Below are positions 26,205 through 55,162 of a stretch of 64,000 bases of DNA, piece by piece; position 1 is the stretch's first letter, and the number at the start of each line of letters is the position of its first letter. Origin of the DNA: Aurantiochytrium sp. KH105 (Eukaryota; Sar; Bigyra; Thraustochytrida; Thraustochytriidae); NCBI GenBank assembly GCA_003116975.1, contig BGKB01000002.1, positions 124,001 through 188,000 of the forward strand. The letters are read 5' to 3'. The notes beneath the pieces are model-generated. The model was not told the origin of the DNA, made no database searches, and was given only the letters and a program-made list of their open reading frames with translations. Position numbers and translations under genes: made by a program.

Positions 26205-26680
26205 CGCGCTCTTTTTCCTCTTCTTCCTGCCCCCAGCTCGCGCGGGCCGCGCGCGCGCGCTCGCCACTTCTTCTGCAGCAGTTCGCCGATCGTAGAGCGC
26301 CTTGGGCTGGCGCGAGCCGCCTCTCGCGCGCGACGCGCTCGCGCGGGCGGCGCGACCGAGCGCACGAGCGGACCGAGCGTTCTCCGCGTACTGCCGCCAC
26401 GTGATTCCGATTTGCCGCCGCTTCAACTGCAGCAGCGCGTGCACACAACCAGCTGGCAGGCTGCTTCCCCGGATTCCCGCGTCTGAAGAGACCGAACAGA
26501 CCTTGGCCCAGAGCGACGACGGAAAAGCCAAGGAAAACGCAAAGGGCTCTCCCAACCAAATTGGAAACAAGAGCAGAGCTCAAAGAGCAAAGGAAAGATG
26601 CCGAGAAAGCGACTTGAGCGGCCAATATTGGAACAAAGGTCCCAGTAGCATAGCCGTCGTCGTGCTCAGGAACCACATCT
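26205..26680. other. intergenic, upstream of the TIR-NACHT-WD40 gene
   Basis: About 475 bases, GC-rich near the gene and mixed further out. The open frame upstream of the ATG is Arg/Ala-rich without ATG support. It contains the promoter; no recognisable box. Confidence 0.4.
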
Positions 26681-29783: not shown

Positions 29784-29843
29784 GGCAAGGAAACTCACAT
29801 TCTTTGATATCATTAATTATTCTGAATGTGATGATTAGCGCAC

Positions 29844-32598: not shown

Positions 32599-33755
32599 CG
32601 TGCGTTCGGCCCAGCCTGCGCACGTGCGTTCCGGTTCGCTGTGCATGCTGCAGCTGTTCACGCTAAAAGGGAACTTAGGAGTCAGGTGCTCGCGAAGACA
32701 TCTCGTACTCATCCGTTACAGACGTGCGTCATCCACAAACCTCAGCACAGGCGTCACGTTGCAGGGCCGGCGAGCAGCCAGCGCCCGCGGCCCGGTCGTG
32801 CGACGCGCGCGCGCGCCGCAATGCACACGCCGCAGCGCGCGCCGGCCCGGACGGCCATGGACACTTCGCAGCGCGCCCAGCCCGGACGGCCATGGACACT
32901 TCGCAGCGCGCACACACCGCCGGCCGCGCGCCGCCGCAATGCACACGCCGCTCCGCACGCGGCACGGCTGGCCGGTGCGCACGCCGCGGCGCAAGCCCTG
33001 CAGCGCGTTCGCCCGTCGAGACGGCCGGCCGCTCGGCCGCGCGGCCCCTCCCAAACTATCGAACTTGAGAAGAAAATACTGCGGCGAGTAATGGTTTCTG
33101 TTGGTTGGCGGTCGGTGCACGATACTATTTTAGGCTTTCTGCAACACGCATTCACGCCGTTTTTCTTTGCGTTCCCATTGGGTGCGCTGGCTATACAAGT
33201 TGCAGATCAAGCCGTAGCTGTAGATAGTAGCACTTCGACCTCTCAATTTGTGACAAATCGCGATTCAGAAAAGAGAAGTCGAAGTTTCGATCAATTCTGG
33301 CTAAACTTCGGGAATGGCGGCATCTAGTACCCGGAATTCTCGGCGAATTTTTTCACCGATTGGCGGCAGGCTCGGGTAGTGCCACTAACCGAAATTCACG
33401 GCTGCCAATCAGAACCTACTTCTTCAATTACCTTCGGGGTCTCCTTTATTCTTGTGATTTGGCGACCTGGTCTCCGCCCTCCTTGCAAAGTTGCACCGAG
33501 ATTTCTCTGATGGGCGTGGAGCTGCTCGCGCGGGCTGCTGACGCCTCACCACGGTCGTCAGACCCGCAGGGCTGGTCGAAGCTGCGCCGCTGCAGCGAGT
33601 AAGCGAGTCCTCGTCGCGCGTCAGTGCGAGCCGCGCCCTGCGGACGTGCCGTGGCTGTTCATGCGCCCTCATCGTTCGCGCAAAAGCCCGTGTAGCAAGC
33701 AGTGGCCCGGAGCGCGAGGTCGGACATGGCGCGATGGCGGAAGCACATCAACGTC
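32599..33755. repeat. 1.1-kb linker duplication, copy 2
   Basis: Second copy of the block at 28664-29783, joined on its left to the truncated VWA remnant. It contains a ~36-bp internal tandem duplication near 32870-32905 (CGGACGGCCATGGACACTTC twice), absent from copy 1. Identity elsewhere looks above 95 percent by eye. Confidence 0.88.
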
Positions 33756-33817
33756 CGGGCAAGATAAATCACATTCTTAGATATCATTGTTTATTCTGAA
33801 TGTGATCATTAGCGTAC

Positions 33818-34882
33818 TCAAAGCATGAAGAGACCAGCGACGAGCGACAACACGAAGCTGACGCCAAGAATGCGACGCGTAGCAGAACTCGGAGAAGTCC
33901 CGTCCGTATCATCCTCTCCATTGCTCCCAGTATAAGAAGTATAAGTAACGACCCCAGGACCAACAATGGAGTCGATCCAGCTCTTATACGCCGCAACGCT
34001 CGTATAGACACCGGGATATCCATCGCGAGCGCATCCATCGCTAAAAGAGGCAATCCCGAGCTGAATGTCTTCTGAGCCCTGAGTAAGAAAAAGGGGACCA
34101 CCAACGTCGCGATGGCAAATGCCCTTGCCAGGAGCCGCCGCACACAAGTACTGATCGAGATTAGAAGAAAGGTCGTATGCACTTGCACAAGCGTCTGTAT
34201 CGACAACGTTCACGTAGACGCTCCGCAGCTCATCGTTGTCTGGGTCTTCATTCGTCGCGCCGTATCCGAGGACCTGGACAGGTGTTCCATCGTCGAGCGA
34301 GGATCCAGCAGCCGCAAGCGAGACAGGAGGAGGCAAATCCGCAGGATCCATGTATTGCTGAATTTCGATGATGGCAATATCGTTTTCTAAAGCACCGCTC
34401 GTCAAGACAGAAAATTCCGGGTGGGGGTTGAACAGAACATCGTGGCCGACAGTGTAGTTTGCAATTTCAAAAAAGAAAGCATCTTCGTCGTTCGAATATT
34501 CAAAATGGTCGTCAAAGAAGAAAAGTGCATAGAAATAATAGAGAGACGAATGATCCGTCGGAGTGCAATTTGCTGCAGTGAGAAAGAAGTGAGAAACAGA
34601 GCTTGCAGAGCCAATGTATGACCCTCCACAGAACTGATGAGTAACATCATTGAAGTAGAACTGAATGTGCACCATCCACGGATTGACCGTAGGACTGATT
34701 GTCGTTCCTCCAAAAATACGAGGGTTTACTCCTCTCTTGACAGCCGACTCATCAAAGCGAAGCTCGCGGTCCATCGTAGCGCACGCAGAGCCGGACCCGA
34801 GAGCTATGCTAGGGCTCGTCCAGCATGCAAGCACGGTTGCCAAGATCATGCAGGGAATGAGCATGCTTGCGCCAGCCTTCAT
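33818..34882 (-). CDS. GPI-anchored trypsin-fold pseudoprotease, copy 3 (intact)
   Basis: An intact 354-residue S1A-family protein from ATG 34882. Residues 1-28 are a signal peptide (MLIPCMILATVLACW core). The chymotrypsin fold starts at RIFGGTTISPTVNPW and keeps CGGSYIGSAS, ENDIAIIEI (Asp102), LGYGA, CHRDVGGPLF and GYPGVYTSV. But catalytic His57 is Asn (LTAANC), Ser195 is Val, and the oxyanion Gly193 is Arg, so it cannot work as a serine protease. A Thr/Ser/Gly-rich stalk leads to a terminal hydrophobic segment (LGVSFVLSLVAGLFML) with nothing after it, the pattern of a GPI-anchor signal. A surface binding protein is the natural reading. The partner is unknown. Two broken paralogues lie at 26.7 and 29.8 kb. 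Confidence 0.85.
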   Translation of the reverse strand: MKAGASMLIPCMILATVLACWTSPSIALGSGSACATMDRELRFDESAVKRGVNPRIFGGTTISPTVNPWMVHIQFYFNDVTHQFCGGSYIGSASSVSHFFLTAANCTPTDHSSLYYFYALFFFDDHFEYSNDEDAFFFEIANYTVGHDVLFNPHPEFSVLTSGALENDIAIIEIQQYMDPADLPPPVSLAAAGSSLDDGTPVQVLGYGATNEDPDNDELRSVYVNVVDTDACASAYDLSSNLDQYLCAAAPGKGICHRDVGGPLFLTQGSEDIQLGIASFSDGCARDGYPGVYTSVAAYKSWIDSIVGPGVVTYTSYTGSNGEDDTDGTSPSSATRRILGVSFVLSLVAGLFML

Positions 34883-35807
34883 CTTTGTTCTTCAAAATTC
34901 TAAGCAAACGTCGATCGATATCTTTTGGTTTGGGATCTGCAGCATGAGCTTTGCGCGCTGCTGCTGCATCTGCGCCACTGCGTATTATTTGTTAATTTAA
35001 ATTAAATGCTTGGCAGACGTCGTCAGAGCGTGTGGCACGTGTCTGACGTTCCCCAAGTACAGAAAATAGCTTATTCACTTATTCACTGTTACGCAACCAT
35101 TTCGTACGCCCAAGAAGGACCTCATCCGATTGCACGAGACTGCAGAGGGCGGATACTCGCCGAGCCGGTCCATAAAAAGAAAGTACGCGCCCCGGCCGGC
35201 GCATTTGCGTTTCGCCCAGCCTGCGCAGGGGTCAGGACATCGCAACTGATCCGCTACAGCCGTATGCCATCCACGACTGTCAGGCTTGACATAATTTGTC
35301 ACATTGCAGGTCAGCCAGCGAGCGACCAGCGCGCGCGACCCGCGCGCGCTGCAACGCCCGCAAGTCCTGCAGCGCAAGCCCTGCAGCGCAAGCCCTGCAG
35401 CGCAAGCCCGCGATACTCCCAATCTTCATCAACGACGAAGATTAAGAGTCAAACATCAGTACAGCCTGCGCATTTGCGTTCCGCCCAGCCTGCTCTGCGC
35501 ACTTGCGTTCCGGTTCGCTATGCAGTATAGTAGCCTTGTGCGCTGAAAATACTACGGCGAAGACTCTTGGCTACGCATTTGCGATTCTGTAGGCTCTTCA
35601 CAATACTGTTACGCTTTTTGGACCACGCTTCCTCATCGTTTCCTTTTGCGTTCCCAGAAGGTGCACTGGCTACACAAGTTGCATACTAAGCCGTAAGCGG
35701 CACTTTGACCTCTCGATTTGTGGCAAATCGATCCTGAAAGAGAAGTTAAATTATCGATCGTTGATAACGACATAAATTGCTGTTGATCTTTAGAGAAAGA
35801 ACTCGGC
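34883..35807. other. duplicated spacer, unit C
   Basis: The upstream block AAGCAAACGTCGATCGATAT is at 34900-34930 and is shared by all three pseudoprotease genes, so it is the best candidate for their promoter. A single minisatellite unit (near 35041) and a CTGCAGCGCAAGCC tandem (35370-35410) follow. No gene. Confidence 0.6.
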
Positions 35808-37700
35808 TCAAACCTTAACAAGGGGTGGCGCAGCGGCATCCTCTGCACAGCTGCAGTCGCCAATGCAGCCACCCTTGTGACCGCCACAGCCGCACGTCTC
35901 GTCGCAGGCGCATTTCTCGCGCTTGCGTAATTGCGATCGGAGCCGGCGCGAAAAAGATCTGCGGGAGACCATTTCCGAGGCAAGCACTTCGAGCTGTTCG
36001 AGGCGCTGAGACGCGCGCCGAAGGCGATCGATGCGGTTGGCGATCATACTCATGACGCCCGCGCGTGCCTTTTTCGATTGTTTCAACCTCTTCGTCTCCT
36101 TGTTGTGCTCGTGCTCAATTGTATCTGTGGGGAAGGGAACGAGATCGACGTCTGACGAACACTGCATTCCAATCGCTTCAGCCATCTCTCGCGGAATCTG
36201 CATGCTGTCGATTGCTTGGAAGACCTCCAAAAGTACGTTCGCGACCTTCTCGTTGGAGAGCTCGTCTCGATCAAGAACACTGAGGCCATAATCAATGAGC
36301 TTGATGGCGGTCCGCAGCTCACTGTATTGCAGCGCATCGGGATCATCTTCAGCTTTAGTAGCCGCATCTTCAAGAGATCTTTTCGTGAAGACCCGTGCCT
36401 CCGGAGAGGCGTCGTTTTTCAGATCGTCAACGCATGGATGAATCTCCTCCAGCAATGCTTCCCGCTTCAGTGTTGCAATCACCCTTGCTGGCACCTCGAT
36501 GCTCGGTCCGTCTTCGTCGTCAATAATGTCAATGCGCAGCTCCAGAACAAGGACGTTCTTACGATCGGGAGAGTTTCGGCGGTGCGTATGGACTTGAATC
36601 GTTGCGAAATGCAAACCCTGTACCGATCCCTGTTGACCATCGAAAAGGACTGGAACGCTCAAGGAAAAGGCGCGAGACGAGTTGAAGGCACCCTTAGCGA
36701 GGTCAATCTCACAGGAATGCTCCGTCTGCGACTCATCCTCGTAAAGAGTAAAATCCTTGGGGAGGCGTTTGAGCTTTTGCTGATTCAATTGCACCAGTCC
36801 GCGAGCTTCCTCGGGAATGTGGACAGAGAGGGTGTTTCCCCAATTGGAACCATTAATGCGACGAGTGTTCGTTTCAGCGTTCTCGTTGGTACCGTTAATA
36901 GTTAGTGTCCCCGAGAAACGAGCACGGAGCTCATTCAGAAAGGCAATGGCGCTCTCGTCCGTGTCGATCGGAAATGTGTGCAAGTTGCAGGAAGTAAAGA
37001 CTTGGCCTTCGAGACCTCCTTCCTCGCATTTCCGAAGATTTGCTACGCGGCGCAGAATATCCTTTGTTATGCTGTGAGTTTCTTCGGGATCTCCCGCCCA
37101 CCCGTCACTTGTGAGACGAATTTCGAGTCGCTCAGGAAGCTCTTCCGCGGCCGAGGAGAACTGAGACTCGAGTCTCAAAAGCTCCTCAAATCCAGTTGCC
37201 ATTTGGGTTCCGCCGTCTGCGTTCAGATTGTCAACCTTTTGCATGAGATCGGCGACGCTTGCTCCATCGAGCTTGACAAAAGGCGAAACGCACGTTGCCA
37301 CATGATTGAAGGCAATCACGGCGCAGTGGATATCCTCATCGTCCACATCGAGCTGGCTGATCCAGTCTCCAAACAATTTCTTTGCCTGAACCGAGCGATT
37401 GCCAGCCATGCTCCCGCTAAAGTCCATTAACCACACCACAGAGTACCCTCCCTTGTCCTCCACCTCAGCGAGCGTGTACTTGACGTGCAGGAAGACCTCA
37501 TCTCCCATGGTGTCCAGATTGAACGTCTCCGGGTATCCCACTTCGAAGGAGGAGAAGACGTCATTCGAGTCATGAAGGGTCGCCCAGGTCTCCTTGCTCT
37601 TGCTCGTCGCTTCGGCTTCGCCATCGGCCTCCAATACGCCATCGACCCCGTCCTCTTCAATGGGCTCCAGCACGTCGCTTTCCTCGTCTAGGGTTGCCAT
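35808..37700 (-). CDS. class I VWA protein, Cys-rich tail (gene VWA-I a)
   Basis: The frame to 37748 starts at TTG; the first ATG is at 37700 in good Kozak context (A at -3, G at +4), giving 630 residues. An acidic N-terminus is followed by a VWA domain at ~75-260 with a complete MIDAS: DFSGS (~residue 90), Thr in GGTQMATG, Asp in TSDGWAG. Next is a beta-rich region with NGSNWGNTLSVHIPEEAR and LPKDFTLYEDE, a helical region (KLIDYGLSVLDRDE), and a C-terminal cluster KC-x-C-D-x2-C-x-C-GG-x2-GGC-x-G-x-C-x-C that probably binds zinc. No signal peptide or membrane segment. VWA domains with MIDAS usually bind a protein partner through a metal ion. The truncated copy at 31917-32598 derives from it. 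Confidence 0.85.
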   Translation of the reverse strand: MATLDEESDVLEPIEEDGVDGVLEADGEAEATSKSKETWATLHDSNDVFSSFEVGYPETFNLDTMGDEVFLHVKYTLAEVEDKGGYSVVWLMDFSGSMAGNRSVQAKKLFGDWISQLDVDDEDIHCAVIAFNHVATCVSPFVKLDGASVADLMQKVDNLNADGGTQMATGFEELLRLESQFSSAAEELPERLEIRLTSDGWAGDPEETHSITKDILRRVANLRKCEEGGLEGQVFTSCNLHTFPIDTDESAIAFLNELRARFSGTLTINGTNENAETNTRRINGSNWGNTLSVHIPEEARGLVQLNQQKLKRLPKDFTLYEDESQTEHSCEIDLAKGAFNSSRAFSLSVPVLFDGQQGSVQGLHFATIQVHTHRRNSPDRKNVLVLELRIDIIDDEDGPSIEVPARVIATLKREALLEEIHPCVDDLKNDASPEARVFTKRSLEDAATKAEDDPDALQYSELRTAIKLIDYGLSVLDRDELSNEKVANVLLEVFQAIDSMQIPREMAEAIGMQCSSDVDLVPFPTDTIEHEHNKETKRLKQSKKARAGVMSMIANRIDRLRRASQRLEQLEVLASEMVSRRSFSRRLRSQLRKREKCACDETCGCGGHKGGCIGDCSCAEDAAAPPLVKV

Positions 37701-39769
37701 TGTTGCTCGCAAGGTTGGCGGACTGCTCTGGTAGTGCGGCCGGCCCAAGGAGAAGGCCGTCGCGCGATCCGACCTCTTGGCCGCGCTAAGCTTTCTCTAC
37801 GCCAAAGTAGTTTGTTACAAGTTATACAATAAAAGCAGACTTTGGCGACCCTTTCTCTTCCTCTTCCTTTTCTCACGTCTCCTCTCTTGCTCCTTCTCTT
37901 CTTCCTCTTCCTTTTCACAAGAAGACTCTCTCACGCGGCTCCGTCGCTCCGTCGCCGCGGGCTGCACGCGCTGCTGCGGTGCTGCTCGATCTTTGTTCGC
38001 CCTTGACATCGGGCACCAACCAATCAAGAGAAGGACAAGAAGCCGCGGCGCGTGCGTCTGCATGGCGTAGCCATGCCGCAGCGCAGCCAGAAAGTCGAGG
38101 TCGCGATTCTTGAGCGGTGCGCGGACGGAGCCTGGCGGCTCGAGGCGCACACACGCGAGCCGCGGCCACCTAAGAAACCGAGTCTTGACGAAGAGACGCG
38201 GACACGGCGCGGAGCCTCGACGCTCGTGCCGGCGGCAGCGGCACGCGGCAGCGGCGCGACGGCTGCTCGCTGCAGCGTCCGACTTCGAGACGTGGAGCCA
38301 AACGCCCAGTCTGCTCGCTGAATGGTTCGTTGGCCGGTGGCGGCTAGCTGGTCTGTCCTGATTGATGGCTCCGCACTAGCTTTTTGCGGGGCCGGGCAGC
38401 GTGAAAAGTCTCAGTAGTAGACTTCACTAGCCAGAAAACTTAAGAGTAATAGCTTTCAGTGCGCCGACGTATAGTCGAAACATCGCTGATGGTATTGGAA
38501 AAAAAGACCTGCAGCGACGTCTGCCTCTTCCTCCTCTTTCATCTTACAGGAAAATATCCTCACGCGGCTCCGTTGCCGCGGCAGCGGGCTGGCTGCACGC
38601 GTTGCGCGGGCGGCACGCGCTGCTGCTGCAGCTGCCAGCTGCGCGATCTCCGTTCGCCCTTAACACAGGCCGCCAACCAATCAAAGAAAGGGCAAGAAGC
38701 CGCGGCGCGTGCGTCTGCACGTAGCCATGTCGCAGCGCAGCCAGCAAGTTGAGGCCGCGATTCTTGAGCGGTGCGCCCGGTTTGGCGGACGGAGCCTGGT
38801 GGCTCGGGGCGCACACACACGAGCCGCGGCACCTAAGAAACGGAGCCTTGATGAAGAGACGCGGACACGGCGCGGAGCTAGCCTCGACGCTGCGTGCCGG
38901 CGGCAGCGGCACGCGGCGCGACGGCTGCTCGCTGTCGCGTCCGACTTCGAGACGTGGAGCCAAACGTCCATATGCGTCGGTTCACCGGTCGGCTGGTGTG
39001 GATGGATCTTTGGCCGGCTAGCTGGTCTGTCCTGATTGATGGCTCCGCACTAGCTTTTTGCGGGGCCGGGCAGCGTGAAAAGTCTCAGTAGACTTCACTA
39101 GCCAGAAGACTTACAGTATAGTAATAGCTTTCAGTGCGCCGACGGAGCCGAAACATCGCTGATATTATCGAAAAAGACCTGCAGCGACGTCACGGTCTGC
39201 CTCTTCCTCCTCTTTCATCTTACAGGAAAACTTCCTCACGCGGCTCCGTTGCCGCGGCAGCGGCTGCGGGCTGCACGCGTTGCTGCGGGCGGCACGCGCT
39301 GCTGCTGCAGCTGCCAGCTGCGTGATCTTCGTTCGCCCTTGAGACCGTCCGCGAAGCTATCAACAGAAGGTCATGAGGCCGCGGTGCGAGCGTCTGCATG
39401 GCGTCGAGCTGCAGCGCATCCAGTCACCACGAGGTCGGGGGCCTTTGAGCCGTGCACGCACTTCGGCGGACGGAGCCTGGTGACTCGGGGAGCGCACACA
39501 CACATATAGACACGAGCCTCTGCGCCAAGATGAAGCGACTGCGACGAGCGCACGGCGCCGAAAGAGCCTCGACGCCCGACGGCAGCGGCACGCGGCGCGA
39601 CGGCTACTGCAGCTGCTGCTGGCTGCAGCGTCCGACTCCGAGGCCTGAAGCCTCCGTGTGCGTTGGTCCAGAGGACAGCTGGTCTGCAGGCCGCAGAAGC
39701 TCCACATGCGGAACGGGGGGCAGCGTGGAAAATCATTATTTTGTTTTTTGGAGACGGGTGACTACACGA
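37701..39769. repeat. three-copy ~650-bp tandem repeat
   Basis: Three units begin near 37930, 38563 and 39236 at CTCACGCGGCTCCGT and share GTTCGCCCTTGA, CCAACCAATCAA, GCCGCGGCGCGTGCGTCTGCA and GCGGACACGGCGCGGAGC. Units 1 and 2 also share CGCACTAGCTTTTTGCGGGG and CTTTCAGTGCGCCGACG. Unit 3 is the most diverged. Each unit start is preceded by a pyrimidine-rich tract with TTCATCTTACAG (units 2 and 3), which looks like a 3' splice site. Frames inside (for example + 38052-38321 and + 38709-39035) are only partly conserved, so I do not call a gene. Confidence 0.85.
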
Positions 39770-41701
39770 CTAATAACATTCGGCCTGCTCCTTGATCTGC
39801 GGCAGAGTGTCATGGGTGCTTGCGGCGCAGCCGCAATTGCCGTAGCAGCCGCCGTCACGACCGCCGCAAGCGCAATCATCGTCACATTGACATTTCTCGC
39901 GCCTCTTCATCTGCACGCGAATGCGTCGAGCGAGCGATTTGCGAGCAACGAGTTCACTCGAGAGTTTCTGGATCTCGGCCACGCGGCCTGAAGGCCGGCG
40001 GATCTTGTCAATCTTCCTCGTGAGAATATCGATGATACCCTTACGGGTCTTTTTCGATTTTGACACGGTCGCGTCCGGAGAACTCGACGACGATGGGTTT
40101 TTGCCTGATGGAAACGGGACGAGATCCTCGTCCGAAGGATTATCCAGGCCGATAGCCTCGCAAAGGTGCCGCGGAATCTGCATTGTATCGATGGCTTGAA
40201 AAATCTCGAATAAGAGATTCGCAGCTTCCGAGTTACTCATCTCGGATTCTTCGTTCTCGTTGATCATCGCGAGGCCATAATCAATGAGCTTCATCGTAGT
40301 TTGCAGCTCAAACCATTCAAGAGCCTCGGGGTCATCCTCGACCTTGACATAACAATCTTCGAGGGAGTCTACAGTTTCGTCACGAGCTTTCGATGAAGCG
40401 TCATCTTTGAGCTTGGTGATGACAGGTCGGAACTCCTCCTTCACGGCCTCTCTCATGATCGTTGCCCTCATCTCTGCCGGGGGGGGTGGCATTGTAAAAT
40501 CTTTCGAGGTCGAGATGCGCAATTTGACCTCGACTTTATTCTTGCGAGCCGCCGCTGCTCCGCGATGTGTTTGCACCTTCAGTGTTGCAAAGTGAAAATC
40601 GGTAAGCGGTTCTTCCAAAGAATCGAGCAAAACCTCGATTGTAAACGTGCGCTTTGAGCCACTGGCACCTTTGGCAAGATCCATTTCGCAGTGATATTCA
40701 GAAAGTGCTTCATCTTGGTAGAGCGTAAAGTCTTTGGGGAGATTCTGACGGAGGTACTTGCGATTGATTTGAAAATTGTCGCGAGCTTGTTCTGGGATGT
40801 CGACAGAAAGGGTATTGCCCCAATTCGAACCGTCCACATAGCGAACATTTTCGAGACTTTCCTGGCCTTGGGATCGAATCGTCATAGTTCCCGTGAAGGT
40901 TTTCGTGAGTCCAAGCAAGAATTCAATGGCGCCGTCATCGGCATCAATGGCAACCGTATGAAGGTTGCACGAGGTGAAAACCTGTCCCGAAATAGCGTCT
41001 TCTTCTTCGTCGTCGTCGTGGCCGTTCCGGAACCGTTGTATGTCTCGCAAGAGGCTCGCGGCTCGATCGTTTGTCTCATCGCGGTCAAATGCTTCTCCAT
41101 CACTGGTAAGATGAATTTCGAGGCGTTCTGGGATTTCTTCTTGAGCACCAGCGAGCTCAGTCTCAAGTTTGATAAGCTGCTCGAATGCGTTGTTCATGTA
41201 TGTGCTGCCGTTCGCTTCCAAAGCATTCACTTTATCCTGGAGATCGGCGACAGATTCCGCATCGAGCCTAACAAAGGGAGAAACGCAAGTTGCAAAGCTC
41301 TCAAACGAGATGACTGCGCAATATATTTCCTCTTTTTCAAGATCGAGTCTCGTGATCCAATTCGAGAATATTTGCTTCGCTTCTCTCTCACGATCACCAT
41401 ACATACTCCCGCTAAAGTCCATGAGCCACGCTGCAGCGTACCCTCCCCTTTCTCTGACCTCATTGAGCGTGTACGAGACATGCAGCCGAATCTCATCGCC
41501 TTCGCTGTCGAGGGAGGCCCCGGCCGGGTGCGTCACGTCAAATGTTGAAAAGATGTCGTTCGAGTCGCTGACGACGGTGAACCCACTCCCAGCGGGCTGC
41601 GACTGCCGCACGTCGTCCGCCTCAGCCGCAGCTGCCGCGGCTGCGGCGCCGTCGGCTCCCGCATCCTCCCCTTGCGGAGTCGGCGTCGTCTCTTGCGTCA
41701 T
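39770..41701 (-). CDS. class I VWA protein (gene VWA-I b), head-to-head pair 1
   Basis: The frame to 41833 begins at TTG; the ATG at 41701 (MTQETTPTP, A at -3) parallels the start of VWA-I a and gives 643 residues. MIDAS is complete: DFSGS in AAWLMDFSGSMYGD, Thr in GSTYMNNA, Asp in LTSDGEAFD. It shares the downstream plan of VWA-I a: DGSNWGNTLSVDIPEQAR, LPKDFTLYQDE, KLIDYGLAMI, AIDTMQIPRHL and the tail KCQCDDDCACGGRDGGC. It reads away from the class II gene at 42756, with a 1.05-kb shared upstream region. Sequence identity to VWA-I a is moderate, so the duplication is old compared with the nearby segmental copies. Cytosolic by lack of targeting signals. Confidence 0.85.
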   Translation of the reverse strand: MTQETTPTPQGEDAGADGAAAAAAAAEADDVRQSQPAGSGFTVVSDSNDIFSTFDVTHPAGASLDSEGDEIRLHVSYTLNEVRERGGYAAAWLMDFSGSMYGDREREAKQIFSNWITRLDLEKEEIYCAVISFESFATCVSPFVRLDAESVADLQDKVNALEANGSTYMNNAFEQLIKLETELAGAQEEIPERLEIHLTSDGEAFDRDETNDRAASLLRDIQRFRNGHDDDEEEDAISGQVFTSCNLHTVAIDADDGAIEFLLGLTKTFTGTMTIRSQGQESLENVRYVDGSNWGNTLSVDIPEQARDNFQINRKYLRQNLPKDFTLYQDEALSEYHCEMDLAKGASGSKRTFTIEVLLDSLEEPLTDFHFATLKVQTHRGAAAARKNKVEVKLRISTSKDFTMPPPPAEMRATIMREAVKEEFRPVITKLKDDASSKARDETVDSLEDCYVKVEDDPEALEWFELQTTMKLIDYGLAMINENEESEMSNSEAANLLFEIFQAIDTMQIPRHLCEAIGLDNPSDEDLVPFPSGKNPSSSSSPDATVSKSKKTRKGIIDILTRKIDKIRRPSGRVAEIQKLSSELVARKSLARRIRVQMKRREKCQCDDDCACGGRDGGCYGNCGCAASTHDTLPQIKEQAECY

Positions 41702-42755
41702 GGTTGATGGCAGGGATCGGTGATGCGGTTTTGCCTTCGTAAATAGTTGCAAAGCAAGACCTCCAGACATCCCCCCTCCAATCGTCACCTCCTTGCAGCC
41801 AACCAGCCTGGCGGAGGGCTTTCTGCGCACCAAGAGCTAAAGAAAGCAGGCGCCTGCACACTACCACCTTCACGCTCGCCTCCAAGCTGAGCCCCGCAGC
41901 GGTCGTGGAGTTGCCGCGTGTCCACGCAGAAGAAGCAATGGGTAGTAAGCAGTGTCTCCGCACAAGTCACGCGCCGTACTCGCGCAGAGCTCGCGCTCGC
42001 GACACGACCGCCTTGCTGCTGCTGCCGCTGCTGCTGCCGCTGCTGCTGCCCCTCGGCTCGACGCAAGGTGCCGCAATGGCCGTGTTGCTCCTGCCGTGCC
42101 GCTCGATCCAAGGAGCGCAGACCTGGCGAGAGGAAAAGCGGAGAAACCCGCACCACCGTCCGGTCAGCCAGCTGCGGGTGTGCACGCGGGTGCCGTCTTC
42201 CACCTCTCGCCTTCCGAGGCACGTGCAGCGCGTGCCGCACGCGCCGGCCTGGGCGCGGCTGACCAGGCGGCTGCGGACGCCAGTCACGTCGACCGACGCG
42301 CCCTCTGCACTGCGTCTCGCGAGACGCCGACGCCGCGCCAGGCTGCCACGCACGGCCAGGCCGCTGCCACTGGTGGCTCGCGGACCGGAGGCGCGGCACG
42401 CGCGAGAGCCGCCCTCGCGCAGCCCCTTACTTGGTCAGTTGCATGCTACCACTGCTGCCGCGGTCTCGGTCCCGCGGCGCGCCCCTGCTCGCGCCATATG
42501 TATGACAAAGCGGCGCGCGCAGGGCGCCCGTGGCGCTGCAGCCTTCGCGTGCCGCGAGAGCGACGCGACTAGCGATCTATCTGGACGGAAGTGGGCGCAG
42601 GCGACGGCCGCGGGCATTGAGCCCACCTTCCGAGATAATCAGCAGCAGGGGATCACACCTGCCAGACCGCGGTAGCGGGCAAAGGCGCAACGCAGGCGAA
42701 CAGAGTCTGAGTTAGGTTAGTCTTGCGCGGCGGCAGCGGCGAGAGGACCAACACT
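41702..42755. promoter_or_regulatory. bidirectional upstream region of VWA pair 1
   Basis: 1.05 kb between two divergent ATGs, GC-rich, with CTGCTGCTGCCGCTGCTGCT runs at 42015-42055. Frames on both strands (such as + 41905-42675) are biased in Arg/Ala and have no domains. By position it must contain the promoters of both VWA genes. No specific box identified. Confidence 0.5.
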
Positions 42756-44870
42756 ATGCCTAGTAGCGGAGAAGACCCCGAAGCGGGGATCTTGGTGCAG
42801 GCGGGGCACGAGTTGGTCACCACGGAGGAAGAAGAGTTGAGACTACTCGGCACTGTCGAGTCACCGACGGGGACCGGAGAATGCGAGCGTGCGGTGGTCC
42901 TCGTGCTGCTGGACACGAGTCGAAGCATGAGCGACCTAGACGAGGAGATCAGAGAGACTTTTCATCTGGAAAACCGTATTTCCGTGATGCGGGAAGTTCT
43001 CGCAAATGTGGTGGGGCAGCTGACTGAAGATGACATCTTCGGGCTCGTCACCTTCAACAACAGAGGAAATGTCATCATCCCCTGTGACTATGCCAACGAG
43101 GAAAATCGCTCTGTCTGGAAGCGTCTCATGGAGAATGACGAGCTTTTCAACTGTAGAGGGCGAACAAATATGGAAAGAGGAATTAACGCAGCCGTAGAGG
43201 AACTCGACAGGATCAAACAAGATGAGAACCTTCGAAACTCGAGTGTGATCATTCTCGGCGATGGCGAAGTATCAAGTGGCGCGGGTTTTGTGAACTCAGG
43301 GAATCCAGATGACAACGGAAGAGCTATTCGGGAGCTAAGGCGTGCCGTTGAGACGAAGTTGGAAGAATCGGATGAACTTGATGTCTGCATCAACGCCTGT
43401 TTGGTCGGCGACAGCATTGAATCAAGTCTCATGAGAGTGGTCACGAAAGAATGCGGCAACAGCGGACAAATGCGGATTTGCTCGGGCGCTTCCTCTAAAG
43501 TCGTAGATTCGACGTCATTCATGCATTCGTTGATCCAAACCGCCCGGCGTACCATCCAAACCGATCAGAGGAAGATCATCACCATCACGGCTCTCGATGG
43601 AGTCACCATCACACCGAAAGCTCCATTCTCCAAAGCAGGCGCCAACGCTGGGACGCCAGGACGGTGCGCTCTTATATGCAAGGAGATAGAACGTGGCTGC
43701 GTCTACGAAGTCCACGTGGCTCGCGAAATTGAAAAGGCAACCTCCAATTTCATCTTTTCGGCGTCGTTAGATGAGATTGAAAGCGACACCGATGCATTCA
43801 AGGTTGCCAAGGTCAACTGCAACGTTTGGCCACAAAATCGCCCTCCTCACCTCATCACTGTCAAGCGTCACTTCCATTCCACCCCTCAGCCAAGACCTTC
43901 GGTCGTTGCTCGAAGCGTGGCATTTGAGAAGCAGCACGAAGTGGTCATGTACCTCGAGAATCGTTCTCAACAAGAGCCCGCTGAACAAATCGACAATCTC
44001 GACCAAACGACGGAAGAGATTGAGGAATTGAAAAGCGATCAGAAACGTTTGAGTAAAGTTCACGGAGCAAAGGATGCGAAGGCTAAGAATCGATTCCGAC
44101 AAATTTTTAACGTCCTCGAGACCGCTCTCCATGATTTGAAAAGTATACGAGAAAAGTTTGAAAGTGACGAGGACCCCGACATTGAACACTACGGCACTCT
44201 CGTCAGCGAGTCTCTGCGGTCGTTTGCTGACACTCTCAGAATTGAAGTTCCGACGGAGAAAAGCAAAGCCTTCGACCCACGCTTCGTGGACAAGCTGACT
44301 ACAGAGAGATACTATCTTTTGAAAAATCAGATGAAAGAAGAGCTTGATAAGGTTGCAGAGCTTCAAAGAGTTCAAGGATTTGAAGGACTCTCGACCAGCA
44401 ATGAGGCTTCTCCGTATCAACATGCTCTCATGAAGGAGCTCGATAGGTTGTTCTATGCAGACACTCACCCGGACGCCGACAGCGAAGACTTTGCGAGCGA
44501 AAACGATGGGGGCGATGGCAGCGATGGGGGCGATGACAACGATGATGATGGTGGTGGTGAGAGTGATGGTCAGGAATCACGAAGAGAGAGCCTCGCGAGT
44601 CGGGTTTCTCAATCGGCCCGTCGTTCCAGTCGCCGACTATCACGCAGATCGAGACGTCGCTCGGCGGCGCGCTCACAACCTAGAGATGATCGCGGAGGAA
44701 CTCCGGCAAGCTCTGCTGCTATGGCCGAGGCATCGGCTGACGTTCGAGACGCCTTGGGGAACCTTGCTCAAGCAGGAGGCCTCGCAATTCGCGCGCTTGG
44801 TAATTTTGCCGCTTCTTATTTGTTCTCTGACAGTGGCCAAGACGACTCCGGTAAACGCGATAACAAGTAG
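42756..44870 (+). CDS. class II VWA protein (gene VWA-II a), head-to-head pair 1
   Basis: Starts at ATG 42756 (the frame from 42723 begins at TTG); 704 residues. The N-terminal half is a VWA domain with full MIDAS: DTSRS in VLLDTSRSMSDLDEE, Thr in CRGRTNMERG, Asp in LGDGEVSSGAG, plus DDIFGLVTFN. This is followed by a beta-rich segment (CALICKEIERGCVYEVHVAREI) and a long helical, probably coiled-coil region (DQTTEEIEELKSDQKR to LHDLKSIREKFESD). Late regions are a low-complexity acidic Asp/Gly block (44500-44570), a very basic Arg/Ser block (SSRRLSRRSRRR) and a mildly hydrophobic Ala-rich end. The internal MIDAS and fold place it with, but clearly apart from, class I. Its 3' end faces that of VWA-I c only about 105 bases away. 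Confidence 0.85.
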   Translation: MPSSGEDPEAGILVQAGHELVTTEEEELRLLGTVESPTGTGECERAVVLVLLDTSRSMSDLDEEIRETFHLENRISVMREVLANVVGQLTEDDIFGLVTFNNRGNVIIPCDYANEENRSVWKRLMENDELFNCRGRTNMERGINAAVEELDRIKQDENLRNSSVIILGDGEVSSGAGFVNSGNPDDNGRAIRELRRAVETKLEESDELDVCINACLVGDSIESSLMRVVTKECGNSGQMRICSGASSKVVDSTSFMHSLIQTARRTIQTDQRKIITITALDGVTITPKAPFSKAGANAGTPGRCALICKEIERGCVYEVHVAREIEKATSNFIFSASLDEIESDTDAFKVAKVNCNVWPQNRPPHLITVKRHFHSTPQPRPSVVARSVAFEKQHEVVMYLENRSQQEPAEQIDNLDQTTEEIEELKSDQKRLSKVHGAKDAKAKNRFRQIFNVLETALHDLKSIREKFESDEDPDIEHYGTLVSESLRSFADTLRIEVPTEKSKAFDPRFVDKLTTERYYLLKNQMKEELDKVAELQRVQGFEGLSTSNEASPYQHALMKELDRLFYADTHPDADSEDFASENDGGDGSDGGDDNDDDGGGESDGQESRRESLASRVSQSARRSSRRLSRRSRRRSAARSQPRDDRGGTPASSAAMAEASADVRDALGNLAQAGGLAIRALGNFAASYLFSDSGQDDSGKRDNK

Positions 44871-44975
44871 TAAAAGACACTTTAAAATCGTTGAAAAAGC
44901 TTTTTCATGTGCATGGAATAAGCATTGATCTTTTTTCACGAGTGAGGCGTCAATTGGCGGTTTCTTCCTCTCTCC

Positions 44976-46952
44976 TTAAGCCGTGGCGTCAATGGATGAG
45001 GGTTCCTGGTCCTCCGAAATGGCAGGCATCACGTGCACAGCAACAATACCATCAGAGGCTGTGTTGTCGCCAAATTGAGACGCAGTGTCGGCACAGCCAC
45101 AGTCGCCGAGACAGCCACCATTCTTTCCACCGCAGCTGCACTGGGCGTCGCAGTGGCACTTCTCGCGCTTGCGAAGAACAGACTTGATGCGTCTTCGCAG
45201 CGATTCACGGAAGACGAGTTCATCGACAAGCTTATTGGCGTCAGGCTTTTCATCTTTGCGATCCGAAGAGAGCATCCTGTCGATGTTACGCGTGAGCATC
45301 GTGAGGAGACCTCGCTGCACCGTCTTTGTCTTTTTGGCCACGTTGCCCATGACAGTTGGTCGACGCTCCGTTGCAAAGGGAAAGAGCGGTCGCGGGCGAA
45401 GCATATTGATAAAGCTTTTGCTCGAGACAACCTTGGCCAGGTCCGCTGGGATTTGCATAGTGTCGATGGCGACAAAGGTGCGATAGAGAAGATGCGCGGC
45501 GTCCTTATTCGTGAAGCTGGACATATCGCGATCCAATTGGCGCAGGGCATGGTCGATGAGCTGAATGGTCGTTTGCACCTCGGCGTACTTGACAGCCTCC
45601 TCATCCTCCTCCGTTGGGTCAGTCTGGTCCCTGAGCGATCTCTTTGCGCCCTCTCGCGTTCGCGGGGACTCGTCATTTTCGAGATTTTTGCTCTGTTTGT
45701 GCGCCTCCTCCTTGGTGTCCTCGCGGCGCTCGATGGCGCGAACGCGCGCGGGCCTCTTTCGAGCTGCATTCGGAGGGTACATTCGCGTGGTGCACAGCTC
45801 AAGCACGAGCTCATCCGTGCGATTGATGACCTCGCCGCGCTGACCGCGCTTTCGCCCTTTCGAGAGCGAAGACCCCCCGCGCATCGTTGCGATGCGCGCT
45901 GTGCAAAAGTGAAAGTTGTTGACACACGTGTCAACTTCTGTGGTCAGCAGAATAGGTACCGAAAAGGTGCGGCCCGATTCGCGTTCTCCCTTAGGGAGGT
46001 CGATTTCACAGTACGTCTCCGTAAGCTCTTCGACCTTAAAGTCCTTGGGCAATCGGCGCTGAAGCACAGGGAGGTTAAAGCTCACATCGTTTCGTGCGCT
46101 CTCTGGAATTTCCAGGTAGAGCGTGCTGTTCCAGTTGGACCCATCAACTTGGCGCGCCGTGCCAATCATCTCCTGAGTACCGTCTGGAAGTGTCAGGGTG
46201 CCCGAGACAAGTTCGACGAGTTGCCTGAAAAATTCCATGGCGCCGTCGTCTGCGTTGATAGCATACGCGTGCAAGTCGCAGCCCGCAAAGATGCGCGTGG
46301 GCACTTGATCCTCTTCATCGTCATCCTGGTTACTTTGTCGCGAGGTGTCGCGCAAGGCACGCATCTCGTCTTTCGTCTTACGAAATGCCTCGAGCGCACT
46401 CTCGCCGTCATAAACCTCGCCGTCGCTTGTGACATGAAATTCGAGACGCTGCGGCGGGTCAATCTCTTTGGTAGCCAAGTCGGCTGCGAGCTCCGCTTCC
46501 ATTTCACGCAAAACGTCGAGCGTTCCACTCATGGAGGTGCCGCCATCCGCCTCGAGCTCATTAACGGCCTCCACAAGAACTCGGGCCGATTCTTTTGTGA
46601 GGCGCACAAAGCCGTCACTTATTCTTGAGGCAACACTTTCGAATTTCACGACGGCGCAGTAGATGACGTCTTTTTTCAGATCGAGTCCATCAATCCACGA
46701 GGCAAACTGCTCCTTCGCCTTGGCCTCGGACTGCCCGTACATGCTGCCGCTAAAGTCCATGAACCACACGACTGCATACGCTGCGTTGCTCGCTGCATAC
46801 TTTGCCAGCTGGTACTCCATGCCCACGGTGAGCTCGTCGGGTCCCATGCGAATGCGTCGCTCAAAGCTTGCTGCGAATCTCAGAAACACATCGCTCGAGG
46901 CCGACACCTCCGCCTCGTTCTCGTCGAGCCCGTTCCGCACAAACCCGGGCAT
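44976..46952 (-). CDS. class I VWA protein (gene VWA-I c), head-to-head pair 2
   Basis: The frame to 47156 contains an Arg/Lys/Ala-rich extension; I start at the ATG at 46952 (MPGFVRNGLDENEAEV), giving 658 residues and a start aligned with the paralogues. MIDAS: DFSGS in VVWFMDFSGSMYGQ, Thr in GGTSMSGT, Asp in VTSDGEVYD. Shared landmarks: DGSNWNSTLYLEIPESAR, LPKDFKVEE, QLIDHALRQLDRD, AIDTMQIPADL and the cysteine tail KCHCDAQCSCGGKNGGC. It differs by a basic insertion (KGRKRGQRGEV) and a longer C-terminus after the Cys cluster. Convergent with VWA-II a and divergent from VWA-II b. Confidence 0.85.
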   Translation of the reverse strand: MPGFVRNGLDENEAEVSASSDVFLRFAASFERRIRMGPDELTVGMEYQLAKYAASNAAYAVVWFMDFSGSMYGQSEAKAKEQFASWIDGLDLKKDVIYCAVVKFESVASRISDGFVRLTKESARVLVEAVNELEADGGTSMSGTLDVLREMEAELAADLATKEIDPPQRLEFHVTSDGEVYDGESALEAFRKTKDEMRALRDTSRQSNQDDDEEDQVPTRIFAGCDLHAYAINADDGAMEFFRQLVELVSGTLTLPDGTQEMIGTARQVDGSNWNSTLYLEIPESARNDVSFNLPVLQRRLPKDFKVEELTETYCEIDLPKGERESGRTFSVPILLTTEVDTCVNNFHFCTARIATMRGGSSLSKGRKRGQRGEVINRTDELVLELCTTRMYPPNAARKRPARVRAIERREDTKEEAHKQSKNLENDESPRTREGAKRSLRDQTDPTEEDEEAVKYAEVQTTIQLIDHALRQLDRDMSSFTNKDAAHLLYRTFVAIDTMQIPADLAKVVSSKSFINMLRPRPLFPFATERRPTVMGNVAKKTKTVQRGLLTMLTRNIDRMLSSDRKDEKPDANKLVDELVFRESLRRRIKSVLRKREKCHCDAQCSCGGKNGGCLGDCGCADTASQFGDNTASDGIVAVHVMPAISEDQEPSSIDATA

Positions 46953-48160
46953 CGTGCTCGCCCTCGCCCTCTCGCCTTTCCCACGCTTGCACGCTCGCTC
47001 TCTCGCTCGCTCGCTCGCTTGCAAGTGTCTCGCCTTCTGTTTGCTCCGTTTGCGATTTGCTGTGGCGCGCTGCAGCTGGCTGGCCGGGTGGTGTCCACGG
47101 GAAGATGGGACCGGGCCGCTCGACCGCCTCTTCGCGTCCGTCTCCCCTGCGCGCACCTTTCACTCCGCACGCGAACTTCGAGCTTTGGCATTCTGCATCA
47201 TCCATCCGCAAGACGCAGGTCCAGGGGGTGGTTGGGGCCGCGTCTCGTGTCGCACGCGCGACGCGGTATTCTCGAGCATGGCATGGCGTTTCTCTCGGTC
47301 CGCGTCATGTTGTGTTCATGGCGCATAGAAAGAAACCTAGTAGTAGGCCTAGGCGTATACGTACCATTGGTATACGCCTAGTATCATGATTTGCGACAAG
47401 GTTTCATTGGCCGTCCCGCCCCACTGTGTTTCCATACTTCATTCCAAACCCCCGGAATTCTTTCAATCGTTCTCTTCTCACTCCGCCAGTCAAGATCCTC
47501 TTCACGCCAGCTCCCGTACCGCCGGTACCGCCGCCTTTATCACGATTCTCACTTTCGTGCTGCAGCCTGCGCGTCCTCCCGCCGCGCCGCGACCGGACGC
47601 GCTCTTCGACCTCAGGCTGCGAGGGCCGCGCCGCGCCTCTCGCGGCCGGCCGCCCGCGCCGCGCCGCGCCCTCGCGCGCGTCTCTTCGAAGGAAGAGTCC
47701 GCTCGCCGCACGTGCCGCGCTGCACGCGCTGCACGCGCTGCACGTGCTCTGATGGTCTGCTCGATCGATCACCAGCCAAGGCAGGTGACAGACAGTGCGC
47801 AAAATTTGTCCTCGAGTGGCCGCGCGGCCAGCGGGGCGCTGCAGCCTGCCCGCCTGAAACCCTCGGAGGCGCGCGGCGTGGGTGCGGCGGGGTGGACACC
47901 GGCGCTGGAATCGAGGGACGGTGGACACCAGCCGGTGCGGCGCGGCGCGGCGTCCAGCGCGCGCGCCCCAGCTGAGCGTGCTGCTGCTCAGCAGCGTGCG
48001 GCAGCCTGGGCTCTTTTTATAGAGACGGCCTCTTTGGGTCGAGCGGGCAGCGCTCAACGAGGAGCGCGGCAGACCCTTAGGCCGCCGGAGCAAGTACACC
48101 TTACATTCGCTCGTTGCAGTTGGTTGCTTCGTTCGTTGATTGCTTCGTTCGTTTAGGATA
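46953..48160. promoter_or_regulatory. bidirectional upstream region of VWA pair 2, with hairpin
   Basis: 1.2 kb between divergent ATGs: a GCTC-type microsatellite at 46990-47023, a strong 12-bp inverted repeat at 47349-47381, an AT-richer part near 47385-47460, then GC-rich sequence to the VWA-II b start. Frames here on both strands are compositional and overlap. By position it holds both promoters. Confidence 0.5.
47349..47381. promoter_or_regulatory. perfect 12-bp inverted repeat
   Basis: CTAGGCGTATAC (47349-47360), a 9-base spacer, then GTATACGCCTAG (47370-47381). The left arm overlaps a TAGGCCTA palindrome at 47344-47351. It could be a dimeric transcription-factor site or a cruciform between the divergent VWA genes. 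The function is inference. Confidence 0.55.
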
Positions 48161-49924
48161 ATGAACGTCAACGTTACGGCGGACCTCGACTACGAAGAGG
48201 TCTCCGTCGGGAAAGAGGAGTTGCACGTGTATGGCACCGTCGCGCCGCCCCAGGATGCGCCCGTGGAGAGCGGGGTGCTCGTGGTGGTCGTCGACACGAG
48301 TCGGAGCATGAGCGAAAGAGACAGGGCGCTCGAGGGCATTCACCAGGACCTTGGCAGCAGGATCTCAGTCGTGCGTGGGGCGATCGAGACCCTCATCTCC
48401 GAGGAGCTCAGAGAAGATGACATCTTCGGTTTGGTCGTCTTCAACACGGAGGGCTCCTTATACATTATGAGCGACTTTGCCACGGACCAGAAGCGCCAAG
48501 AATGGCTTTACATCATGAACGAGTATGACCTGGCGAATGAATGTGGCGGCTTAACAAACCTTGAGCAAGGCATGGAGTGTGCCATTAATGAGCTTCGCTA
48601 CGTTGCCGAACAAGGCCGCCGCAGCGCTACACTCGTCGTAATGTGCGATGGCGAAATCACTTCCGGCGCGGGCTTTGTACAGACGGGCCGGAGGTCTGGG
48701 CGCTTCAGGGGCGCCAAGGACCTCGTTCAGGCTATCAATACAATGCTAGAGGAGGAAATTCCGGACCTCAGCGTGCGCATCACGACCTGCGGCATCGGCT
48801 ACGATTTTGATCCTGACGCGCTGCGCATCGTCTCTTCGAAATGTGGCGAAGGCGGCATTTGCGAGGCTCTCGTCGACGAAACGGATCAGGTCACCTTTGC
48901 CACTAGTGTGCTTCGCAAGGAGCTTCAGGAATCGCGTTCCACGGTCGATATTGACAGCGTGACTCTAACGCTCGAAGCCGCTGCAGACACGATCTTGGTG
49001 CCGCGACATCCCACCCCGGAGACGGACGTAGCGGATCCGCAGGGGCGTGGGTCAATGCATTGCGTCGAGCGAGAGGCTGGTAAAAAGTACGATCTCACTA
49101 TCACGCGCCATAGCAAGAACAAGGTGCTTGACTTCAACTTTTCGGCCATACTCGAAGCCTGCGTCGCGCCCTCACCAGACTTCGCAGTGGCCTATGTGCA
49201 GAGTTCTCCACCGGGGTTTAGTAGAGTGCTCATGGTGAAGCGCAGACAAAGTGGTCGCAAAGTCCGTCCCCCCATCCAAGCCCGTGCCGAGGCTTGTGAG
49301 ACACGACACGAGACAGCCACAGACCTTGCTAGGCGCGCACAGAAAACCAACGAGGCACAATTTGAGTCTGCCGAAACCACCGCTGGTGACCTTGAGCAGA
49401 TGGGAAGTCGAGTACAAATGCAAGCGAGACGCTGCGTACGTATTGATGAAACGGCGGCGGAACAATATGAAAAGATTAATGTGGTTGTACGAAAAGCATG
49501 CGCTGACGTCCAAAAGGTCATGCGGGAGATCATTGCGGCACGAGATGAAATGGGTGCTCAGGAGGAGATGAGTCCACAGCAAGAGCAGCACTTTGGGTTT
49601 CGAATCAGCAACAGTCTTGGCACGCTTGCTGGCGTCCTCTGGACCCAGTCTCCTTCAGCCACTTCTGTAGCTTACTCAGAGGAACTCAACGTCAACATGA
49701 CCCAGGAGGAGCGAACGAAGCTGCAGGAGGAGCTCGATGCGCTCCGCTCACTTCAAGCCGTGACAAATTATGCCCATAATCGCACCTCGAGAGAGATTGC
49801 AATGGACCTTGAACGTGTGGCTCGTCTCAAGGAGCTTACAGCGCTTTTTCCACGTGCACAAGGGGGGTTTGTGAGAAGAATGAGCCAGCGCTTGTCGAGA
49901 GGAAGTCAAAACCAGGGCACTTAA
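48161..49924 (+). CDS. class II VWA protein (gene VWA-II b), head-to-head pair 2
   Basis: Starts at ATG 48161 (the earlier frame start is TTG); 587 residues. VWA domain with full MIDAS: DTSRS in VVVDTSRSMSERD, Thr in CGGLTNLEQG, Asp in MCDGEITSGAG; DDIFGLVVFN is shared with VWA-II a. The mid-region CVEREAGKKYDLTITRH corresponds to the CVYEVHVAREI region of its paralogue. The C-terminal third is helical (LARRAQKTNEAQFESAETT, REIIAARDEMG) and ends in a short Arg/Ser tail (RRMSQRLSRGSQNQ). It lacks the acidic Asp/Gly block of VWA-II a. No targeting signal. The best evidence that class I and class II work together is that both pairs keep the same divergent arrangement. Confidence 0.85.
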   Translation: MNVNVTADLDYEEVSVGKEELHVYGTVAPPQDAPVESGVLVVVVDTSRSMSERDRALEGIHQDLGSRISVVRGAIETLISEELREDDIFGLVVFNTEGSLYIMSDFATDQKRQEWLYIMNEYDLANECGGLTNLEQGMECAINELRYVAEQGRRSATLVVMCDGEITSGAGFVQTGRRSGRFRGAKDLVQAINTMLEEEIPDLSVRITTCGIGYDFDPDALRIVSSKCGEGGICEALVDETDQVTFATSVLRKELQESRSTVDIDSVTLTLEAAADTILVPRHPTPETDVADPQGRGSMHCVEREAGKKYDLTITRHSKNKVLDFNFSAILEACVAPSPDFAVAYVQSSPPGFSRVLMVKRRQSGRKVRPPIQARAEACETRHETATDLARRAQKTNEAQFESAETTAGDLEQMGSRVQMQARRCVRIDETAAEQYEKINVVVRKACADVQKVMREIIAARDEMGAQEEMSPQQEQHFGFRISNSLGTLAGVLWTQSPSATSVAYSEELNVNMTQEERTKLQEELDALRSLQAVTNYAHNRTSREIAMDLERVARLKELTALFPRAQGGFVRRMSQRLSRGSQNQGT

Positions 49925-54749: not shown

Positions 54750-55162
54750 TCGGCGCGATCGAGACGTGAGATAACGCGACTGGATCGAGAAATCTCTGCT
54801 GTGGTCAGAGCCGCCAAATTCTCAGAATAATTTTTCGTAAAAACGCCAGGTCTCGTGCTGCCTCGAGTGCCACAGTGGCCATCTCAAACTGTGCTTTAAT
54901 GCGCGAGTCTGGGGCGACCCGATCGAGACGTGAGATAACGCGACTGGATCGAGAAATCTCTGCTGTGGTCAGAGCCGCCAGTTTCTCAGAATAACTTTCG
55001 TAAAAACGCCGGGTCTCGTGCTGCCTCGAGCGCCACAATGGCCATCTCAAGCTTCGCTTTAATGCGCGAGTCTGGGGCGACCCGGTCGAGACGTAAGAGA
55101 ATGCGACCGAATTGAGAAATCCATGCTGTGGTCAGAGCCGCTAGATTTTTTTCCAGTCCAAA
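54750..55162. repeat. tandem copies of the 3' end of the MoeA-like gene (~165 bp)
   Basis: About two and a half diverged units, period 163-166 bp, each carrying AGATCGAGACGTGAGATAACG, AAATCTCTGCTGTGGTCAGAG, CGTAAAAACGCC and CGCTTTAATGCGCGAGTCTGG. They are continuous with the last coding unit of the MoeA-like gene (55163-55312), whose reading VAPDSRIKAQ is still legible on the minus strand in each. So the coding end of the gene was duplicated into its 3' flank. 54580-54749 is ordinary spacer. Confidence 0.9.

Follow-up and report, generated by a model that had tools for sequence, protein, structure and literature searches.

Are the paired class I and class II VWA genes of Aurantiochytrium sp. 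KH105 partners or products of local duplication?

In the 64,000-nucleotide stretch of contig BGKB01000002.1 of the thraustochytrid Aurantiochytrium sp. KH105 analyzed here (positions 124,001 to 188,000 of the forward strand; hereafter the window, in whose own numbering all coordinates are given), genes for proteins with a von Willebrand factor A (VWA) domain occur in two similar modules, each with a class I gene diverging from a class II gene. To our knowledge, most intracellular VWA proteins of protists are uncharacterized. An earlier sequence-only reading had taken the repeated arrangement as a sign that the two classes work as partners, and we wondered whether it speaks instead for the way in which the cluster grew. 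With moderate confidence, we favor the view that these VWA genes form a local cluster that is still growing, derived from the copying of one old class I/class II pair and from later duplications, and that their products are intracellular and would act as cytosolic adaptors. The side-by-side placement of the two classes is real and leaves a partnership possible, but it does not by itself show one.

Five intact VWA genes and a class I relic

The cluster consists of the following genes, identified by open reading frame (ORF) analysis, domain searches and alignment:

31920-32599, minus strand: class I relic, 5'-truncated and frame-broken (tblastn and alignment to I0 residues 403-421 and 423-630)
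35808-37700, minus strand: class I gene I0, 630 residues (ORF, Pfam, alignment to the other class I proteins, of which I1 is the closest at 49% identity)
39770-41770, minus strand: class I gene I1, 666 residues (ORF, alignment; a second in-frame ATG at 41701 is an alternative start)
42756-44870, plus strand: class II gene II1, 704 residues with an acidic, then Arg/Ser-rich tail (ORF, Pfam, alignment)
44976-46952, minus strand: class I gene I2, 658 residues, tail to tail with II1 across a 105-bp gap (ORF, alignment, partial TIGR03788 match)
48161-49924, plus strand: class II gene II2, 587 residues (ORF, Pfam, alignment)

The order is thus relic, I0 and I1 (all leftward), II1 (rightward), I2 (leftward) and II2 (rightward), giving three intact class I genes, two class II genes and a class I relic. 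All five intact genes lie within about 14 kb, and in each of them the strand agrees with the class. The four ORFs named in the sequence-only reading are present and intact at their coordinates and strands, the only amendment being that I1 is also open from the earlier ATG at 41770. Both of its head-to-head placements exist, but a description as two modules leaves out the unmatched third intact class I gene I0, the relic and the tandem duplications around them. The 5' side of I0 faces the class I gene I1, not a class II gene, across a gap of 2,069 bp, and a tblastn search of the window found no class II relic.

Assignment to the VWA family varies in strength among the five proteins. I0, II1 and II2 reach a curated Pfam cut-off for VWA, and I1, at 22.6 bits, falls just below its threshold of 23.8. 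For I2, Pfam gives no VWA match at E-values up to 0.1; we counted it as a VWA protein because it can be aligned to I1 along its length and partially matches NCBIfam TIGR03788 (E 5.8e-10), although at 38.2 bits this match is far under the family cut-off of 551.65. The metal ion-dependent adhesion site (MIDAS), whose motif (DxSxS with a T and a D) and residue assignment we take to be those usual for VWA proteins, is complete in the alignments of both classes. Its residues are invariant in the three class I proteins (D93/S95/S97, T165 and D199 in I0 numbering) and in the two class II proteins (D53/S55/S57, T137 and D169 in II1 numbering). The earlier assertion that all four named genes carry a complete MIDAS is therefore borne out and extends to I0. 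The same holds for the Cys-rich class I tail, which takes the form of a seven-cysteine motif, CxCx3CxCx6Cx3CxC, in all intact class I proteins (3/3) and in neither class II protein.

A crude hydropathy scan revealed neither a transmembrane-like segment nor an N-terminal hydrophobic stretch in any of the five VWA proteins (the highest 19-residue Kyte-Doolittle mean was 1.53), a point in favor of an intracellular location. None of the five matched a VIT domain (Pfam, E up to 0.1), an alpha-kinase domain (Pfam), a PHROGs family or a VWA family of PADLOC. Two further matches, of II1 to PADLOC typeIV_Cas7 and of II2 to NCBIfam cas_Csa4, fell in helical parts with E-values of about 8e-4 and were judged to be coiled-coil or composition noise.

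Duplication history and the adaptor reading

How old the two modules are can be read from the divergence of their genes. Protein identity is 49% for I0-I1, 40% for I0-I2, 42% for I1-I2 and 33% for II1-II2, and synonymous sites are saturated among the paralogues (NG86 dS 2.3-3.1, dN 0.47-0.76, third-position identity 0.34-0.39). Saturated synonymous sites in five intact ORFs of 587-704 codons indicate long purifying selection on old, constrained genes. A very recent block duplication, which the sequence-only reading had itself named as the case that would undo its proposal, is excluded as the source of the modules by the protein and third-position identities, together with the reading frames that have stayed open.

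An old duplication is another matter. A tree built from the five VWA domains grouped II1 with II2 (support 100) and I0 with I1 (54), and the maximum-likelihood distances between VWA domains were 0.86 for I1-I2, 1.27 for I0-I2 and 1.18 for II1-II2; the corresponding full-length Kimura distances were 1.09, 1.13 and 1.43. Because the class I and class II distances overlap, a single duplication of one old class I/class II pair, followed by copying of single genes, suffices to produce the present arrangement. Modules with this origin amount to roughly one event, so that the repeated gene order is one piece of evidence and not two independent cases of functional pairing.

Later copying within the cluster has left clearer traces:

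28640-36494, no strand: tandem duplication of two abutting direct copies of about 3.9 kb each (28640-32599 and 32596-36494), with an identity of 0.938 across 3,826 aligned positions (computed over ungapped columns)
37896-39686, no strand: tandem repeat of about 670 bp in about three copies, flanked by the I0 start and the I1 3' end; every copy carries the 11-mer GCACGCGCTGC

The relic is 94% identical in amino acid sequence to I0 over the 208 residues from 423 to 630. In translation it is without the VWA domain and shifted in frame by a 4-base gap, and it keeps the Cys tail. Over 624 comparable coding bases the relic and I0 differ by 21 substitutions; 12 codons are changed nonsynonymously and 8 synonymously (dN 0.027, dS 0.062). 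The junction of the two 3.9-kb copies coincides with the truncated 5' end of the relic, indicating that the relic was probably born truncated. Given these tandem copies, the relic, the 3.9-kb duplication and the copies of a trypsin-fold gene described below, we regard the cluster as still growing. Among the 670-bp repeats between I0 and I1, one 77-bp stretch is identical in two copies.

In the history that we favor, an ancestral divergent pair of a class I and a class II gene would have been copied once, long ago, to give the two modules; I1 would later have been copied in tandem to give I0, and the 3.9-kb tandem duplication would then have produced the broken class I relic. The products are most likely cytosolic, MIDAS-bearing adaptor proteins that have expanded locally. 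With Mg2+ seated at its MIDAS, the VWA domain would grip an acidic residue on another protein, and the beta region and the helical bundle behind it may form a scaffold. The seven-cysteine tail of class I probably binds metal, with zinc the likely one, and could offer a second docking site, a role for which the acidic and Arg/Ser-rich tail of II1 may serve instead. This mechanism does not require the two classes to be ligands of each other.

The structure model of a class I protein, low in overall confidence, gives a possible outline of this domain order. It shows a VWA core, a run of strands, helices and a low-confidence tail, with predicted local distance difference test (pLDDT) values of 72-84 at residues 101-160, the first half of the VWA domain, and helices within residues 405-500, at 70-81 from residue 411. 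The beta part and the helical bundle appear in this class I model only, at a predicted template modeling score (pTM) of 0.35. A Foldseek search with the model, of which we considered the best 50 of 942 matches, returned as its two best entries a VWA protein of Catenulispora acidiphila (4fx5, E 5.2e-10; 13% identity over 516 alignment columns, TM-score 0.19-0.26) and ITIH1 (6fpy, E 1.6e-9).

Several points weigh against the adaptor reading and the history attached to it. The support of just 54% for the I0/I1 branch allows separate duplications, as does the full-length comparison, in which the class II proteins are farther apart (1.43) than the class I proteins (1.09 and 1.13). The whole models are poor: the class I model has a mean pLDDT of 51.8, falling below 50 in the second half of the VWA domain (residues 200-290), and the class II model, with a mean pLDDT of 38.4, is too poor to use. 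Foldseek TM-scores were about 0.2 over the long hits. The E-values of other VWA proteins (ANTXR2, complement factor B, C2a, alpha-2/delta-1) and of Sec24 trail those of the best entries by no more than a few orders of magnitude; an ITIH-like shape is thus not singled out, and the placement of the domains is tentative. When the parts behind the VWA domain were compared with the PDB at E-values up to 10, only weak, unrelated matches were obtained. Finally, in what order the older duplications occurred is inferred rather than observed, as is the cytosolic adaptor role with its location and its metal and ligand binding. A sequence element in the divergent gaps, described in the next section, also weighs on this side.

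Divergent gaps and the case for partnership

The divergent gaps between the two classes contain the following features:

41771-42755, no strand: divergent gap I1/II1, 985 bp, 69% GC (from ORF boundaries)
46953-48160, no strand: divergent gap I2/II2, 1,208 bp, 65% GC (from ORF boundaries)
42219-42235, plus strand: 17-bp element GCACGTGCAGCGCGTGC, containing CACGTG, exact copy in the I1/II1 gap
47731-47747, minus strand: second exact copy of GCACGTGCAGCGCGTGC, in the I2/II2 gap, overlapped by a one-mismatch copy at 47722-47738

Three mechanical ORFs in or over the gaps (245 residues in the I1/II1 gap; 221 and 256 residues at the I2/II2 gap) had no Pfam match. The spacing of 1.0-1.2 kb given in the sequence-only reading agrees with these measurements, and it is long for a shared promoter. 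In Arabidopsis, according to PMC2851598, divergent pairs show a special enhancement of co-expression only when they are less than 400 bp apart, a bidirectional-promoter limit that both VWA gaps exceed, with the reservation that the threshold comes from Arabidopsis and that our distances run between ORFs and do not count untranslated regions.

The strongest alternative takes the two classes as obligate partners: within each pair, both genes would be expressed together from the divergent gap and their products would assemble into a single complex, one protein gripping with its MIDAS an acidic residue of its partner, and the adjacency of the genes would be under selection. In its favor, both modules have kept the same order and strands despite divergence to 42% (I1-I2) and 33% (II1-II2) identity. 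The 17-bp element also speaks for it, since within 2 mismatches it has three matches in the window, all in the two gaps, against 0.04 expected, and a match of at least 17 bp arose between shuffled gap pairs in 1 of 500 trials. The comparison of shorter words points in the same direction: the two gaps have 30 10-mers in common, against a mean of 11.4 in random GC-rich window pairs, none of which (0/47) reached 30, although the sample is small and the gaps are unusually GC-rich. The three upstream regions have four 10-mers in common (reached in 2 of 500 shuffles), one 11-mer (17 of 500) and no 12-mer. The 11-mer GCACGCGCTGC has seven copies in the window (at 26432, 37964, 38613, 39292, 42225, 47722 and 47731), where 0.30 would be expected, and all of them lie between listed genes; one copy is in the first gap, two are in the second, three belong to the tandem repeat on the upstream side of I0, and one lies about 230 bp upstream of a TIR-WD40 ORF.

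These signals have to be discounted, however. The element was chosen after looking, has a high GC content, consists in part of a 9-bp tandem repeat, and stands in opposite orientation in the two gaps; another 17-bp coincidence occurs elsewhere in the window, at 16331 and 45649, and three of the seven copies of the 11-mer are copies of one repeat. As an element common only to the two gaps, it may be taken as modest support for co-regulation and as a lead. Against obligate partnership there are also three class I genes to two class II genes, gaps well above the Arabidopsis limit, and the sufficiency of a single block duplication. We consider obligate partnership unlikely. Of the earlier argument from repetition to partnership, the two classes, the complete MIDAS sites and the repeated divergent placement stand; the conclusion drawn from them is weak, because one old pair duplication yields both modules, I0 is unpaired, and divergent pairs are nothing special in this window.

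This last point also counts for another view, that two unrelated VWA families are neighbors by chance and that their alternation of strands is coincidental. Among the 20 neighboring pairs formed by 21 listed features, four are divergent, four convergent and 12 tandem. Two of the four divergent pairs are non-VWA pairs, one of which depends on a partial kinase ORF and on an ORF at the window edge that has no Pfam match. The list was picked by hand (features that are Pfam-supported, long, or broken copies, and the leftmost window-edge ORF), and it omits a 299-residue ORF at 3654-4553 without a Pfam match and further unsupported ORFs. The two classes are, moreover, hardly alike: hhalign gave a non-significant probability of 0.8% for the VWA region, and forced pairwise alignment yields identities at background level, 22-24% within the VWA domain and 25% in the part that follows. 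For the regions that follow the VWA domain, a common origin of the two classes had no support either (hhalign probability 0.1%). Chance nevertheless accounts poorly for five intact VWA genes in about 14 kb whose strand matches their class in every case, and for the overlapping ages of the two paralogue splits, which makes a mere coincidence improbable.

Known systems and the wider neighborhood

Searches of viral and prokaryotic collections for relatives of these VWA proteins returned none. Patterns from the class I and class II alignments matched 48, 138, 33 and 159 stretches of viral contigs and prokaryotic genome contigs, with no relative among them (tblastn); I1 alone had no match among phages, and a DNA pattern of the Cys tail had none in viral contigs. 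These blanks say little about protists, as the collections are viral or prokaryotic. Among the titles listed on VWA genes of thraustochytrids and their kin and of stramenopiles, none dealt with such genes, and no family that we searched explains the seven-cysteine tail.

By analogy, the nearest described counterpart in kind is Vwa1 of Dictyostelium. PMC10539598 presents it as a VIT-vWFA protein located inside the cell, whose paralogues are lineage-specific and whose MIDAS Ser and Asp residues are conserved, and adds that intracellular VWA proteins occur in many protists. In ITIH, VWA5A and Vwa1, the same source places a beta (hybrid-1b) part and then a helical bundle after the VWA domain, an order that the low-confidence class I model may resemble. 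Those proteins have a VIT domain before the VWA domain, whereas the five proteins here have no VIT match, for which reason we did not place them in the VIT-vWFA group; their tails differ as well. A VWA alpha-kinase is comparable as a VWA-bearing stramenopile protein, a weak VWA match being reported for Phytophthora in PMC3019232, but none of our five proteins has a kinase domain. In the bacterial vWA conflict systems, according to PMC7159879, vWA proteins are combined with TIR and inactive STAND ATPases, and often with trypsins that lack catalytic activity. The MoxR-vWA-VMAP systems treated there are alike in using a MIDAS-bearing VWA domain as the peptide-binding part, and TIR and trypsin-fold genes occur in the wider neighborhood here; they differ in having adjacent MoxR and VMAP partners. 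The genes concerned, to the left of the VWA cluster in the window, are these:

6488-9314, minus strand: adjacent TIR ORF and ROC-COR ORF, 43 bp apart (Pfam)
22479-26204, minus strand: TIR-WD40 protein, an NLR-like ORF of 1,241 residues (Pfam TIR and WD40 repeats, and a weak NACHT-like NPHP3_N match below the cut-off)
26745-27812, 29847-30906 and 33821-34882, minus strand: three tandem trypsin-fold copies, the first with stops, the second with a frame break, the third intact (354 residues)

The TIR and ROC-COR ORFs at 6488-9314 possibly form one gene. In the trypsin-fold copies, the positions that we presume to be the catalytic His and Ser, placed through alignment to VesC, are altered: the Ser position is Val or Phe in all three, and the His position is Asn in two and disturbed in the first copy. 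The intact copy itself has Asn for His and Val for Ser, and these proteins are, judging from such substitutions, probably inactive. It also has hydrophobic stretches at both ends, the N-terminal one signal-like. No match named MoxR, VMAP or iSTAND was obtained with Pfam among 20 window ORFs, a set from which shorter ORFs were left out (E-value limits of 0.1 for one part and 0.001 for the other; of the 35 families matching the 1,241-residue protein, the best 25 were considered).

This neighborhood gives rise to a more ambitious proposal, in which a class I and a class II protein, each matched to the other, would together make up an intracellular recognition complex; the gene pair would duplicate as one unit, governed by a shared cis-element, with every duplicated pair evolving its own specificity, and the region with its TIR, ROC-COR and inactive-protease genes would be an unrecognized variable recognition locus of a protist; we think this improbable. 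A related suggestion makes the VWA proteins the peptide-binding parts of an immune-like intracellular conflict system together with the TIR/WD40 gene, the TIR and ROC-COR ORFs and the probably inactive trypsin-fold proteins, and can point to local duplication, to the copy of GCACGCGCTGC upstream of the TIR-WD40 ORF, and to the bacterial combination of vWA, TIR, inactive STAND and trypsins (PMC7159879). We hold it to be very unlikely, in view of the MoxR/VMAP and PADLOC negatives above, the signal-like start that the intact trypsin-fold protein has and the VWA proteins do not, and the housekeeping genes PurF, Efg1, acyl-CoA dehydrogenase and MoeA interspersed in the region.

The locus is one in which two highly diverged VWA families, one of them with the seven-cysteine tail, have grown by tandem duplication beside TIR-type genes, and it provides a concrete test case for whether such VWA clusters are recognition systems. 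Further short tandem duplications occur in the window at 9512-10454 (97% identity over 463 bp) and at 54756-55298 (87% over 380 bp).

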